33,498 nucleotides of DNA, taken from Candidatus Jorgensenbacteria bacterium CG03_land_8_20_14_0_80_38_39. GTDB taxonomy: Bacteria > Patescibacteriota > Minisyncoccia > UBA6257 > GWB1-50-10. The number at the start of each line of letters is the position of its first letter. Position 1 is the stretch's first letter. The position numbers were made by a program, and so were the translations under genes. Below, one piece after another: positions 3,115 to 8,887 of this stretch. The DNA is taken from positions 1 to 33,498 of the forward strand of contig PEUU01000011.1 of assembly GCA_002781185.1 (NCBI GenBank), given 5' to 3'. The notes beneath the pieces are model-generated. The model was not told where the DNA came from. It saw only the letters and a program-made list of their open reading frames with translations, and ran no database searches.

Positions 3115-3357
3115 AAGAAAAAAACAAGGGAGAGAAGAAAAATAGATTAAATAGTTATGACGAAAATCAAAGATTTACTATCCCACCGGAAAGTGAAACA
3201 ATGGATGGAAATAAATCGGCTACCCCCCGCGACCCGAAGGAGATTTTGAAGGGGATTCAAATAAAAAATGAAAAAATCGGCTAATTTCTTTATTTTTTGG
3301 CTATTTTCCTCAGCCTTTGGGTTGAGGATTTTTTGTGGTAGGATTATAATATAGAAT

Positions 3358-4578
3358 ATGCCAATTACAAAAATAGCCACATTCGTAGCACCACAAATTA
3401 AAATCTCTAAACCCTTTGAAACATCTCTTAATGGCGTTGATTTATCTTTTGCAAATATTAAGGAATACGAACGAACAAAACATGTTCACAGATTACATCC
3501 TTATCTTGGGAAATTTATTCCTCAATTGGTAGAAGTATTTTTACGCAGTTATTTTAAAAAAGGCGATTCAATTCTTGACCCCTTTATGGGGTCGGGGACA
3601 ACTTTAATTGAGGCAAATGTGTTGGGCATGCATTCTGCCGGCGTTGAAATTTCGCTATTTAATTGTTTAATAGCTGATATTAAAACCAAAAAATATGATA
3701 TACCCTTAGTTGAAAAAGAAATAAAAGATATTCTTTTTAAGACAAAGGAATATAGTAATTGGTTGGCACAGGGGCAAAAACAGGCCACTTTTTTGCAAAA
3801 ATCTTTTAAAAAATATAAAACTGACAGCGAATATCTTAATAAATGGTTATCAAACAGAGCCTTACAGGAAATATTATTTTATAATGGTCAGATTGAAAAT
3901 TATCAGAATCAAGACATTCTTAAAATTATTTTAAGTCGGGCAACAAGGAGTGCTCGTTTAATACCGCATTATGATCTGGCTAGACCATCAAAGCCGGTTC
4001 GCGGGAAATATTATTGCATAAAACACAGACGGTACTGCGAGCCAATTAATGAAGCAATAAAATTTATAAATAGATATAGTTGGGATACCATCAGAAGAAT
4101 TAAAGAATTTGAAAACATAAGGACAAATGCTCATATAAAAATAATTCAGGGAGATTCGAGAGAGATTGATTTTAACAGGATCGAAGGGTACAAAGGCGGG
4201 AAATTTGATGGGATTTTTACCTCACCGCCGTATGTTGGCCTGATAGATTATCACGACCAACATCGCTATGCTTACGAACTTTTTGGATTTAATGACAACG
4301 GCCTTAAAGAAATCGGCCCAGCTTCAAGAGGTAGAAGTCGTGAAGCCAAAAAAGAATATAAAAATGACATTATTGCCGTATTTCAAAATATGAACCGGTT
4401 TTTAAAACCGAAAGCAAAAATTTTTGTTGTAGTTAACGATAGAGATAATCTTTATCCGGAAGTTGCCTCAGCCTGCGGTTATGAAATTGAAAAAGTTTTT
4501 CACAGGCCCGTTTTAATGAGAACAGAACGTGATAACACGCGTTTTTCAGAAAGTATTTATTATTTTATAAAACGATAA
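3358..4578 (+). CDS. Site-specific DNA methyltransferase (amino-MTase type, TSPPY motif)
   Basis: DPFMGSGTTLIEA (motif I) and TSPPYVGLIDYHDQHRYAYELF (motif IV). Confidence 0.85.
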   Translation: MPITKIATFVAPQIKISKPFETSLNGVDLSFANIKEYERTKHVHRLHPYLGKFIPQLVEVFLRSYFKKGDSILDPFMGSGTTLIEANVLGMHSAGVEISLFNCLIADIKTKKYDIPLVEKEIKDILFKTKEYSNWLAQGQKQATFLQKSFKKYKTDSEYLNKWLSNRALQEILFYNGQIENYQNQDILKIILSRATRSARLIPHYDLARPSKPVRGKYYCIKHRRYCEPINEAIKFINRYSWDTIRRIKEFENIRTNAHIKIIQGDSREIDFNRIEGYKGGKFDGIFTSPPYVGLIDYHDQHRYAYELFGFNDNGLKEIGPASRGRSREAKKEYKNDIIAVFQNMNRFLKPKAKIFVVVNDRDNLYPEVASACGYEIEKVFHRPVLMRTERDNTRFSESIYYFIKR

Positions 4579-4579
4579 T

Positions 4580-5362
4580 ATGGCATTATCTTTAAAAACA
4601 AAAAATGAAATTAGCCAGCTCCTTATCGAAGCAGTTGAGAATAAATTAAAAGAGTACAAACCAGAAACTGCTTATGCTCCTTTTCACCATCGATTACTTG
4701 GTAAAGACAGATATGCCATGTTTTCTTTTATTCAATCAATGAATACTACTTTCGGAATGTCTATTTGGGAGCAGGTTGCAGTGATATTATCCAGGGGAGC
4801 TAATTATAAAGCCGATAGACAATATAAATTACTCGGTGAAATAGATAATGATACTGACGCATTTATTAGAGATACTCATCATAAATTAAGAGAAGGGAAA
4901 ATAACGGTCAATAAAGAAAAAGAAATTGAGCAAATTAGAAAAAGAATAAAGAAAGGCAAAGCAAATGAAGATCCCGATTCAATTGTGGATTTATTTATAA
5001 ATATTAAAGGCGTAGAGAATTACTTCGATATTACCAGTGTTAAATCCAACATAAAAGAATTTGTCGCATTGAAGCTTAAATTACTAAGATGGACTGCATT
5101 AAGATTGAGTCAAGATAATAATGCCACTGTCTTTACTAGACTTGCAATAGCATATAACCCTTATTATCCCGAACCATATGAACGTTGGACATTAAAAGGA
5201 TTATATGACTTAGCAAGAGGAGAAATTTTGGTAGGCGAGGAATTTTGGAATTTTGTTGCTGGCGATGATATTTATAAAGATTTGCTTGATGTTTTTCAGG
5301 AAGCGGGTGAAAAATTAAGGCCGAAAATTGATAAAAGATTTACCAAGTTCAGAAAAGTTTAG
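4580..5362 (+). CDS. Putative TdeIII-family type II restriction endonuclease (GGNCC-type family)
   Basis: 1-nt gap after the MTase; PFHHRLLGKDRYAMFSFIQSMNTTFGMSIWE and GLYDLARGEILVGEEFWNFVAGDD match my memory of the TdeIII family. Confidence 0.65.
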   Translation: MALSLKTKNEISQLLIEAVENKLKEYKPETAYAPFHHRLLGKDRYAMFSFIQSMNTTFGMSIWEQVAVILSRGANYKADRQYKLLGEIDNDTDAFIRDTHHKLREGKITVNKEKEIEQIRKRIKKGKANEDPDSIVDLFINIKGVENYFDITSVKSNIKEFVALKLKLLRWTALRLSQDNNATVFTRLAIAYNPYYPEPYERWTLKGLYDLARGEILVGEEFWNFVAGDDIYKDLLDVFQEAGEKLRPKIDKRFTKFRKV

Positions 5363-5402: not shown

Positions 5403-5479
5403 ATAAAAATTGTGAAAGATAAAAAAACCACCCTCCGCGACCCGAAGGAGATTTTATAAATTTCAAAATATTTTAAAAA

Positions 5480-5842: not shown

Positions 5843-5851
5843 AAACTACGA

Positions 5852-5881
5852 CTTAGCCAACAAAAAATTAGGCCGATAAAT
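5852..5881 (+). repeat. Module-bordering direct repeat, copy R1
   Basis: CTTAGCCAACAAAAAATTAGGCCGATAAAT; near-identical to 6251-6281 and 8851-8887. Confidence 0.8.
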
Positions 5882-5882
5882 A

Positions 5883-5916
5883 AACATTCCAACATTCTAT
5901 AGAATGTTAGAATGTT
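5883..5916. promoter_or_regulatory. Palindromic operator copy 1
   Basis: AACATTCCAACATTCTATAGAATGTTAGAATGTT: 34 bp palindrome with one mismatched pair. Confidence 0.8.
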
Positions 5917-5951
5917 GTAATATGATACGGAAAGGATTATAATTTTTTAAC

Positions 5952-6218
5952 GTGAAAACACCAAAACAGTTAGAACGATATTTTAAGGGTGCGGCAAATC
6001 ATTGGCGAATCGCCATTTTACTTGCCGTTGAGAAAAACGAAGGAATCACAGTAGAAGGGATTGCCGAGGAACTTGATGCCGACTTTAAAAATATTTCTCA
6101 GCACACTCGCCGACTGGTTCAAGCCGGTCTTTTGAATAAAAAGTACCGAGGCCGCCAGGTAGCCCACTCTCTTTCACCCTACGGCAAATCCTTCCTCAGG
6201 TTCATGAGAACATTCTAA
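5952..6218 (+). CDS. ArsR-like winged-helix transcriptional regulator (no Cys)
   Basis: HWRIAILLAVEKNEGITVEGIAEELDADFKNISQHTRRLVQAGLLNKKYRGRQVAHSLSPYG wHTH; GTG start. Confidence 0.75.
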   Translation: MKTPKQLERYFKGAANHWRIAILLAVEKNEGITVEGIAEELDADFKNISQHTRRLVQAGLLNKKYRGRQVAHSLSPYGKSFLRFMRTF

Positions 6219-6239
6219 CATTCTATAGAATGTTAGAAT
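6212..6239. promoter_or_regulatory. Palindromic operator copy 2, overlapping the 3' end of the regulator CDS
   Basis: ATTCTAACATTCTATAGAATGTTAGAAT: 28 bp perfect palindrome. Confidence 0.85.
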
Positions 6240-6250
6240 ATATATGAGGT

Positions 6251-6281
6251 GGCCAACAAAAAATTAGGCGAATAAATTTAT
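6251..6281 (+). repeat. Module direct repeat, copy R2
   Basis: GGCCAACAAAAAATTAGGCGAATAAATTTAT. Confidence 0.8.
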
Positions 6282-6290
6282 GACTATTTT

Positions 6291-7796
6291 ATGACTCAGG
6301 AAGAAGCATTAGAAATATTGAAAGCCGGGCACAATGTGTATTTGACCGGAGCAGCGGGAACAGGGAAAACATATTTGCTTAACGAGTATATCCAATTTTT
6401 AAAAGCAGAAAAAATCGGCGTGGCTGTAACCGCTTCTACCGGCATTGCTGCAACTCATCTGGCTGGACTTACGATTCATTCTTGGGCAGGGATCGGAGTT
6501 GAACGTTTTGCCTCGGACGTGGATATAAAAATGATGGCTGCTAATCGCAGAGTGGCTAAGCGATTTGCAGAAACCGATGTGCTTATTATCGATGAAATTT
6601 CCATGCTTGACGCCGACCGCCTAAATTTAGTTGAAAGGGTAGCGAGGATAGCTAAAGGAAATTGGAAACCTTTTGGCGGGATACAAATAGTGCTCTGCGG
6701 AGATTTTTTTCAACTTCCACCGGTGGCTAAGGAAGGCGAGCCTCCGCCGCGGTTTGCCTATCATTCCTCGGCTTGGAAAGAATTAGATTTAAAAATTTGT
6801 TATTTACATGAACAGTATCGGCAAGGGGACCAAAAATTTTTCAATATTCTCAATGCAATTAGGCAAGCCAGAGTAGATAATTTTGTGATATCAAACCTTC
6901 AGGCGCGACGGAATGCAAAACTCGCCAATAAGGAAGTCACCAAACTTTACTCGCACAATGTGGATGTGGATGCAGAGAATATCAAAGAACTTAACCGACT
7001 TCCCGGAAAAGAAATGCATTATAAAATGGAAGCATCAGGCGTTCCCGCAATTGTAAAATTACTTAAAGGCGGATGTCTGGCGCCGGAAATTTTAACGGTT
7101 AAAAAAGGCGCTAAAGTAATGTTTGTAAAAAATAATTTTGAGAAGGGATATGTGAATGGAACACTCGGCAGCGTAGTCGGTTTTAATGATTGGGGATATC
7201 CAATAGTCGCTACCTTTAATGGCCAAGAGATTAGCGCTTCGCCGGAGACATGGAATGTTGAGGAAAACGGCAAGGTGCTTGCCAAAATTACCCAAGTCCC
7301 TTTGAGACTTGCCTGGGCTATTACTATTCACAAAAGCCAGGGGATGACGCTTGACGCGGCAGAAATCAATCTCGCGGAGGCGTTTGAAAAAGGCATGGGA
7401 TATGTGGCTCTTTCGCGGGTCCGCTCCCTTAATGGCATAAAATTGATTGACTTTAATGAAATGGCGTTGCAAGTGCATCCGGAAATTTTAGCCTACGATA
7501 AAGAATTGCAACAGCGTTCAGAGGAAGCGAGACTAAAGTTTTATTCTTTACCAAGTAAGTACAAAAAATTCAAAACAGAAGGAAATGTAAAGGCCTACTC
7601 TGTGAATGAAATCAGAAAATTCTACCCAGCGGCTTATCAGAAATGGTCCTTAGAAGAAGAGAGAAATCTTGTTGATAGTTTTAAAGAAGGTGCGAAGATA
7701 AAAGTAATTGCTAAGAATCTGGGGAGAAAAAGCGGCGCTATCCGCTCGCGTCTAAAAAAGTTGGGATTAATAAAAAATCAGCGGTTCGAAAAATAA
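6291..7796 (+). CDS. PIF1-like SF1 DNA helicase with C-terminal HTH-like domain
   Basis: Walker A GAAGTGKT, Walker B LIIDEISML, GDFFQLPPV, AITIHKSQGMTLD, GYVALSRVRS; C-terminal WSLEEERNLVDSFKEGAKIKVIAKNLGRKSGAIRSRLKKLGL. Confidence 0.9.
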   Translation: MTQEEALEILKAGHNVYLTGAAGTGKTYLLNEYIQFLKAEKIGVAVTASTGIAATHLAGLTIHSWAGIGVERFASDVDIKMMAANRRVAKRFAETDVLIIDEISMLDADRLNLVERVARIAKGNWKPFGGIQIVLCGDFFQLPPVAKEGEPPPRFAYHSSAWKELDLKICYLHEQYRQGDQKFFNILNAIRQARVDNFVISNLQARRNAKLANKEVTKLYSHNVDVDAENIKELNRLPGKEMHYKMEASGVPAIVKLLKGGCLAPEILTVKKGAKVMFVKNNFEKGYVNGTLGSVVGFNDWGYPIVATFNGQEISASPETWNVEENGKVLAKITQVPLRLAWAITIHKSQGMTLDAAEINLAEAFEKGMGYVALSRVRSLNGIKLIDFNEMALQVHPEILAYDKELQQRSEEARLKFYSLPSKYKKFKTEGNVKAYSVNEIRKFYPAAYQKWSLEEERNLVDSFKEGAKIKVIAKNLGRKSGAIRSRLKKLGLIKNQRFEK

Positions 7797-7824
7797 AACA
7801 TCTAACACCTTTAATATTTAATAA

Positions 7825-7856
7825 ACATTCTAACATTCTATAGAATGTTAGAATGT
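7825..7856. promoter_or_regulatory. Palindromic operator copy 3
   Basis: ACATTCTAACATTCTATAGAATGTTAGAATGT: 32 bp perfect palindrome. Confidence 0.85.
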
Positions 7857-7871
7857 CATTGTAAGAAAATT

Positions 7872-8849
7872 ATGGCAAAGAAAAAGTTGATTAGAATTAA
7901 AGCAACCTATCTCAGTAAAGACCTTCAGCAAATATTAGGAAAAAAGAAAGAGGTATTTCAAGTTCCCCAAGGTTTTAGATCGGGTGATTTTTTTGATTTT
8001 CTTCAAGAACGCTATCAGGAGATATTTAAAAAGTTTGGCCCGGGTTATTTGGGATTTGTTTTAAATGGACAAAAGCCTCATGTTCTTACTTTATTAAAAG
8101 ATGGCGATCATTATAAGTTTATTACCTGGACCGCTAAAGAAATTTTAGAAGATGAATTTGCTAAACATCTTAAAGAAAAAGGGGCGATTATAGAACTGCC
8201 AAAAGGAAAATTTAAAATGCCGAAGTGGATGGGATGTACTTGGCGCCGGGTTGCTTGTGGTAAAGACGATTGTCTAATCTGTGGCCGGATTAAGAGAGAT
8301 CGACAAAAACATATTGAGCAAGGAGAAGACCCTGATGATATGAAATCGGTTTTTGAGGATGTAGATAGAAATTTTAAAGAAGTTTTAAAAATGATAAAGA
8401 AGGATTGTGAAACTTATGGAATTGAATTAACTAATATTGAAAATATTAAAGAGCCGCCAGAACCAGAAGAATTTCCTCTTTATAGAGAAATTGACGATTG
8501 GCGTGATAAAGTGATAGCGTTATTGGGGGAGGCGTATGAAACTGAAGAACTTTGGGTAGAAACCGAAGCGGCGGCTGATTTATCTTGGTATAAAGATACG
8601 ATAGCCGCCAAAATCTATAGACAACTTATCAATAAATGGCATATCGAGCAGGGAGATGAATACGGCGACTTTGATTATAAATACACAAAATATGTTCTTG
8701 GCGAATGTTTAAAAATTCTAAAAAAATCTCTCAATGAATTGATTTTGCTTCAATCTCTTCAAAAAGCGGATTTAATAGTGACTTTAGCGCGTCTTTTAGA
8801 AATTGAGAAAAAGATTTTAAAGACATTAGATAGCCAAAATTTAGGCTGA
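7872..8849 (+). CDS. Uncharacterised protein: MoaD/ThiS-like N-terminus + Cys4 cluster + helical C-terminus
   Basis: ORF; track start 7845 lies inside the palindrome, so ATG 7872 preferred; LGKKKEVFQVPQGF...GFVLNGQ...LLKDGD resembles the MoaD pattern; CTWRRVACGKDDCLIC. Confidence 0.7.
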   Translation: MAKKKLIRIKATYLSKDLQQILGKKKEVFQVPQGFRSGDFFDFLQERYQEIFKKFGPGYLGFVLNGQKPHVLTLLKDGDHYKFITWTAKEILEDEFAKHLKEKGAIIELPKGKFKMPKWMGCTWRRVACGKDDCLICGRIKRDRQKHIEQGEDPDDMKSVFEDVDRNFKEVLKMIKKDCETYGIELTNIENIKEPPEPEEFPLYREIDDWRDKVIALLGEAYETEELWVETEAAADLSWYKDTIAAKIYRQLINKWHIEQGDEYGDFDYKYTKYVLGECLKILKKSLNELILLQSLQKADLIVTLARLLEIEKKILKTLDSQNLG

Positions 8850-8850
8850 A

Positions 8851-8887
8851 CTTAGCCACCAAAAAATTAGGCGATTAAATTTATAAG
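8851..8887 (+). repeat. Module direct repeat, copy R3
   Basis: CTTAGCCACCAAAAAATTAGGCGATTAAATTTATAAG. Confidence 0.8.

Follow-up and report, generated by a model that had tools for sequence, protein, structure and literature searches.

Short palindromic repeats in larger genomes have a tyrosine transposase as their partner; for the palindromic repeats of Rickettsia we know of no partner. Here we describe a 32-bp palindrome found in a 33,498-nucleotide stretch (hereafter the window) of Candidatus Jorgensenbacteria bacterium CG03_land_8_20_14_0_80_38_39, namely contig PEUU01000011.1, positions 1 to 33,498. The palindrome is a dispersed repeat family of many tiny-genome Patescibacteria, and its partner, judged from sequence, is a gene for an 88-residue DNA-binding protein of the ArsR fold. 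The window is one contig (C31) of a host genome of 550 kb in 37 contigs, estimated to be 100% complete. A literature search that did not extend to subscription journals found nothing on such repeats in this phylum.

REP elements are palindromes of 20-40 bp, scattered mostly between unidirectional or convergent open reading frames (ORFs) near stop codons, with some inside genes (PMC3733652). The Patescibacteria repeat resembles REP and the REPtron in three ways: it is a short, dispersed palindrome near stops; it brackets a partner gene; and it comes in several families with matching partner genes. Unlike REP/RAYT, it lacks the GTAG/CGTC tag and is present in 1-18 copies per genome, and its partner is an ArsR-fold protein rather than a Y1 transposase, in a host genome that contains no RAYT.

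Rickettsia palindromic elements (RPE), about 150 bp long, lie in frame in conserved genes (PMC10969869). Like them, the Patescibacteria repeat occurs in reduced genomes as palindromic units in frame in conserved genes that are unrelated to one another, and the peptide it contributes is similar in each. Unlike them, it is about 32-40 bp (no more than a third as long as an RPE), has a dedicated partner gene, and belongs to a different lineage. The repeat is thereby a member of neither group; the place of the transposase is taken by an ArsR-like partner. That partner in turn resembles the ArsR/SmtB repressors CzrA, CadC, SmtB, and HlyU in fold, in sequence profile, and in having a palindromic putative operator over its own promoter. 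It differs from them in its 88 residues, without cysteine or effector domain, and in that the putative operator is also a dispersed repeat.

A winged-helix gene between two palindromes

The repeat unit is 32 bp, ACATTCYNACATTCT-NN-AGAATGTNRGAATGT. Its copies in the window, and the gene that two of them enclose, are as follows.

5883-5916: palindrome 1, 34 bp with one mismatch (core 5884-5915), ACATTCCAACATTCTATAGAATGTTAGAATGT; upstream copy of the winged-helix unit
5915..5943, + strand: promoter-like TTGTAA-17-TATAAT, abutting palindrome 1
5952..6218, + strand: gene for the 88-residue winged-helix protein, GTG start, cysteine-free ArsR fold
6212-6239: palindrome 2, 28 bp perfect (32-bp register 6210-6241, one outer mismatch); downstream copy of the winged-helix unit
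7825-7856: palindrome 3, 32 bp perfect, between a PIF1-family helicase gene and a third gene (gene 3)

The three palindromes are not due to chance: the half-site ACATTCTA occurs 10 times in the window, every time within one of them, against a shuffled expectation of 0.86 and a maximum of 4 over 100 shuffles. The preliminary description of the window had located all three, reported none elsewhere in it, and placed one at the 5' end of each of three genes. Coordinates, perfection, and confinement to these sites are all borne out. The 5' placement stands as far as position goes, but palindrome 2 holds the stop codon of the 88-residue gene (ACA TTC TAA) and is not simply 5' of the helicase, which starts 50 bp further on. 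Palindrome 3 lies 29 bp past the helicase stop and 15 bp ahead of the gene-3 start at 7872; an alternative gene-3 ATG, at 7845, falls within it. An Rfam search of the window gave no match.

The 88-residue protein was correctly described as cysteine-free and ArsR-like. It matches HTH_5 above the Pfam cut-off, and its NCBIfam ArsR/SmtB score, 41.6 bits, is below the cut-off of 55 bits. The AlphaFold model is confident (pLDDT 92), and its best matches among PDB folds are CzrA, CadC, SmtB, and HlyU, with TM-scores up to 0.89. The cysteine-based metal-sensing site is absent; non-metal ArsR members, HlyU and PagR, are among the profile matches.

Palindrome 1 ends 36 bp before the GTG start. The −35-like TTGTAA begins on its last base, and TATAAT follows 17 bp on. 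This arrangement makes palindrome 1 the probable autoregulatory operator of the winged-helix gene, whose transcript probably is leaderless (GTG at 5952).

The bracket recurs elsewhere. Among 52 distinct homologues of the winged-helix gene, 45 have the palindrome upstream, 37 have it at or just after the stop codon, and 33 have both; several of the misses lie on contigs that end early. An exact TATAAT occurs within 30 bp of 16 of the 45 upstream copies, versus 3 of 218 flanks of dispersed copies (p=3e-11). Two samples were scanned with the reversed pattern as control, a phylum sample of 290 Patescibacteria genomes and a sample of 30 near relatives. The winged-helix gene is present in 18 of the 290 genomes, and sites and gene co-occur in both samples (p=9e-5 for the 30 relatives, p=3e-9 for the 290). 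Moreover, dispersed copies match the palindromes flanking the gene in their own genome (mean 3.0 mismatches) better than those in other genomes (4.3; p=0.0002), as the ACGTTCT-type copies in genome G291 illustrate. These associations identify the ArsR-fold protein, at the level of sequence, as the partner of the dispersed palindrome. We infer from them that the palindrome is the binding site of the protein and that the protein represses its own gene. The preliminary description had already proposed the binding, and the brackets, TATAAT adjacency, co-occurrence, and variant matching all lend support to it.

Dispersal and placement of the copies

In the host genome, the consensus ATTCYNACATTCTNNAGAATGTNRGAAT, relaxed to allow up to 3 mismatches, finds six copies and the reversed control none. 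Those outside the window are listed here by contig and position.

C8:5773: 59 bp upstream of xseA
C21:790: inside mnmA
C7:4184: at the head of a decayed gene-3 copy (segment at G000:C7:4179)

Copies are present in 25 of the 290 phylum genomes (control: 0 in all 290) and in 13 of the 30 near relatives, with at most 18 per genome (G312; controls zero). DNA-uptake sequences were rejected as an explanation, the copy number being far too low. A scan of 85,462 GTDB species, whose counts are lower bounds, found at least 80 loci, nearly all from Patescibacteria among the matches listed; the exceptions there are a few bins labelled Phycisphaerae, Kiritimatiellaeota, or Verrucomicrobia. Six loci with exact copies (L124, L149, L131, L154, L155, and L174) are on contigs binned as Kiritimatiellaeota and Phycisphaerae. 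Some of these copies lie inside apparently genuine genes of those groups, pointing either to spread beyond the Patescibacteria or to mis-binning. A phage or plasmid origin was rejected: a pattern search of IMG/VR gave 0 palindrome matches, and the winged-helix gene was found once, at the edge of one viral contig, and not at all in phage or plasmid records.

Dyad symmetry dies away within about 4 bp outside the 32-bp core. One locus (L088, G233:C2:78000-86500) carries four near-identical palindromes of the ATTCTATCATTCTATAGAATGATAGAAT type with similar A-rich flanks, three of them about 80 bp past the stop of a short gene.

For location, 172 distinct exact copies were collected and classed by mechanical gene calls, so that the classes carry some error: 41 beside the winged-helix gene, 26 inside genes (ORFs of at least 150 codons), 22 convergent, 6 divergent, and 55 tandem, with the remainder near contig ends. 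Convergent positions are commoner than divergent ones (p=0.004). Tandem copies lie a median 41 bp from the upstream stop versus 110 bp to the downstream start (p=0.0005). Most copies, then, are placed where no operator role is possible: after stops, between convergent genes, or inside genes. This matches the reported distribution of REP elements (PMC3733652), not that of operators.

Placement bears directly on a classical regulon, in which the winged-helix protein represses PIF1, gene 3, xseA, and others as an inducible DNA-repair or defence response. Such a regulon would fit the upstream copy that overlaps the winged-helix promoter, the host copy ahead of xseA, and the genes beside the winged-helix gene, namely PIF1 (four genomes), ORFx, a nuclease gene of the Vsr/MTES_1575 type (three genomes or more), and, in L134, an HhH-GPD glycosylase gene. 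However, the copies avoid divergent regions, the genes adjoining them are ordinary housekeeping genes, and the TATAAT adjacency of the upstream copies is not seen at dispersed ones. We regard the regulon as improbable. An SOS-like regulon, prompted by the xseA site, was rejected as the general pattern, since most copies lie away from promoters.

Copies inside genes have a further property. One reading frame, encoding xHSNILENVGMx, is used by 24 of the 26; stop codons alone predict 47% in that frame (p=1e-6). The host proteins include MnmA (in several genomes), MurC, MurD, MurG, TrmD, PGK, YchF, and TsaD. In comparisons with homologues in the PDB, the TrmD copy matches a clean insertion of 11 residues; the MurD and PGK copy sites have net insertions of 13 and about 14 residues, respectively; and the TsaD copy lies within a 50-residue insertion.

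The copy in mnmA, a tRNA-thiolation gene, is seen in at least five genomes, in or near one loop: the host (C21:790), G293 (L283), G307 (L284), G250 (L041:9888), and L142, where a second, degenerate copy stands in tandem. In relatives whose genomes have no palindrome (L219, L221, and L236), the MnmA and MurC loops hold other repeat-like peptides, of the RNSKFEIP and SRHPERSAEYGVEGSHTLPSA types; several unrelated repeat families may therefore use these loops.

Another possibility is that the copies are chromosome-organising sites, selected as anchor or partition sites, possibly within genes, for a binder like ParB, Noc, or AspA. Copies are few per genome, some lie in genes, and their arms are strictly palindromic; the winged-helix profile also weakly matches AspA, a centromere-binding winged-helix protein (E=6e-5). 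Against this, the patchy distribution of the gene is not what one would expect of a segregation system, nothing ParA-like was seen next to it, and clustering at 3' ends, one fixed frame, and net insertions in TrmD, MurD, and PGK are unpredicted. Such a role seems highly unlikely.

Still less credit can be given to elements acting as RNA, that is, hairpin terminators or mRNA-stabilising structures copied by selection. The palindromes do form perfect transcript hairpins (−12 to −19 kcal/mol) and lie past stop codons, but they have no conserved U-tract, and the in-frame copies, the overlap with the winged-helix promoter, and the variant matching are left unexplained. A hairpin function may be a secondary effect.

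The idea of a Y1 (RAYT) transposase mobilising the copies as non-autonomous REPs is largely refuted and the least credible of all: size class and location bias are those of REPs (PMC3733652), the gene is bracketed as in REPtrons, and Y1 genes occur in 14 of the 30 relatives, but the flanking columns of exact copies have only an A-rich bias (A at −1 and −3) with no GTAG or CGTC tag, PF01797 has no match in the complete host genome or in G312 with its 18 copies, Y1 presence is not associated with sites (p=0.15), and the bracketed gene encodes an ArsR-fold protein. Membership in REP/RAYT was rejected on these grounds: tag, Y1 gene, and Y1-site association are each wanting. Since the host genome has no Y1 or RAYT gene, the repeat needs no such transposase.

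A repeat and its partner: the preferred model

A dispersed short repeat with an 88-residue ArsR-fold partner, which would repress itself through the copy at its promoter, is the best explanation of these observations and, in our judgment, a probable one. In this model, palindrome, winged-helix gene, and palindrome would make up a self-contained unit, 358 bp long in the window. The protein, as one dimer or as two dimers occupying the four 8-bp half-sites, would bind the upstream copy over the −35 region and repress transcription of the winged-helix gene. Scattered copies should bind the same protein, and would accumulate where they are least harmful: directly past stops, where genes converge, and, read in frame, within surface loops. 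Palindromes 1 and 2 would be the flanks of the unit, and palindrome 3 a dispersed copy between PIF1 and gene 3.

The sequences themselves show the dispersal, the in-frame copies (in four proteins with net insertion), the winged-helix bracket, the promoter overlap, the co-occurrence, and the variant matching; past mobility of the copies is what we infer from them. Several observations weigh against this explanation. A strong match to the winged-helix protein is missing from 15 of the 25 phylum genomes with sites, so copies may persist after the gene is lost, or may go with diverged relatives. In four of the host proteins (MnmA, MurC, YchF, and MurG), the loop that holds the copy varies in length or has no clear net insertion; these copies could in part derive from mutation. 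No empty sites were found at the nucleotide level, and a search for target-site duplications gave weak 2- and 4-bp signals, none of them consistent, so that the case for past insertion rests on protein gaps. (A 9-bp repeat beside the TrmD copy lies within low-complexity sequence, in a frame at odds with a simple 41-bp insertion.) Finally, palindrome 3 may yet serve gene 3 as a functional operator.

A bolder proposal makes the palindrome-flanked gene a minimal selfish element that has no transposase itself and whose protein promotes the copying of its site. Nucleases or helicases might be borrowed for this, for example PIF1 or the MTES_1575-type nuclease nearby. This proposal is doubtful; were it true, a selfish element would have seeded the essential proteins of reduced genomes with a short peptide.

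The repeat-and-partner model has several implications. A repeat in some of the smallest free genomes would have an identifiable partner gene of an unexpected family, with variants of the partner matching variants of the repeat and a near-constant 12-residue peptide added to essential enzymes. A single small protein and a single 32-bp site are enough to put the spread of RPE-like repeats, an old question, to a direct test. In annotation, palindromes adjoining genes of Candidate Phyla Radiation bacteria need not be operators of those genes.

Neighbouring genes and other repeats

Two genes follow the winged-helix unit in the window, and a 35-bp direct repeat (D2) recurs around them.

6291..7796, + strand: PIF1-family (Dda-like) helicase (Pfam PF05970, E=1.5e-41; PHROG Dda-like helicase, E=1e-68)
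7872..8849, + strand: gene 3, 325 residues, CX6CX4CX2C motif
5847..5881, + strand: D2 copy 1, 35 bp
6243..6277, + strand: D2 copy 2, 35 bp
8846..8880, + strand: D2 copy 3, 35 bp

PIF1 adjoins a winged-helix homologue in the window, G293, L151, and G312/L102. In G293, of the same family as the host, the order is palindrome, winged-helix gene, palindrome, ORFx, palindrome, PIF1; this ORFx is nuclease-like, with an MTES_1575/DUF559 domain. Four of the five PIF1-bearing genomes among the 30 relatives also have the winged-helix gene (p=0.047). The link is weak but real.

Gene 3 matches no Pfam, NCBIfam, or PHROG family above cut-off, and its single-sequence structure model is unusable (pLDDT 41), so the label "MoaD-like" given to it earlier could not be confirmed. 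Partial relatives occur in only two of the 290 genomes, G159 and G285, neither with the winged-helix gene; the three-gene module is not conserved. In the decayed second copy of gene 3 (C7), homology starts at the palindrome, with nothing recognisable to the left.

The preliminary description had joined these genes in a private three-gene regulon, possibly an inducible defence or DNA-repair module next to a restriction-modification pair, and expected the three families to co-occur. The palindrome instead stands at unrelated loci in the host and many other genomes, and gene 3 was never found with the winged-helix gene in the phylum sample. Co-control of the helicase fares better to the extent that PIF1 adjoins the winged-helix gene in four genomes, but most copies are not placed as operators. 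No defence function emerges for the module: PADLOC returned only generic or weak matches for the three proteins. The restriction-modification pair is real, a separate known Type II system at 3358-5362 with a TdeIII-type endonuclease. Homologues of both its genes adjoin palindrome copies in another genome (G035, L085).

Each unit of the module is followed by D2, whose core is CCAMCAAAAAATTAGG. The sister genome G293 (C2:160.9-168.5 kb; L286, L316) has at least seven D2-like copies, on a single strand and nowhere else in 308 kb. There they stand between small accessory genes: a phosphatase, an SDR, a HicBA-like pair, the PIF1-nuclease-winged-helix group, a thioesterase, and a TfoX-like gene. The region looks like a gene-cassette array with a short boundary repeat, though with no obvious attC features. 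A second direct repeat in the window, distinct from the palindrome and with core CCGCGACCCGAAGGAGATTTT, brackets the restriction-modification pair at 3211-3247 and 5419-5455, with a third, partial copy at 1971-1991.

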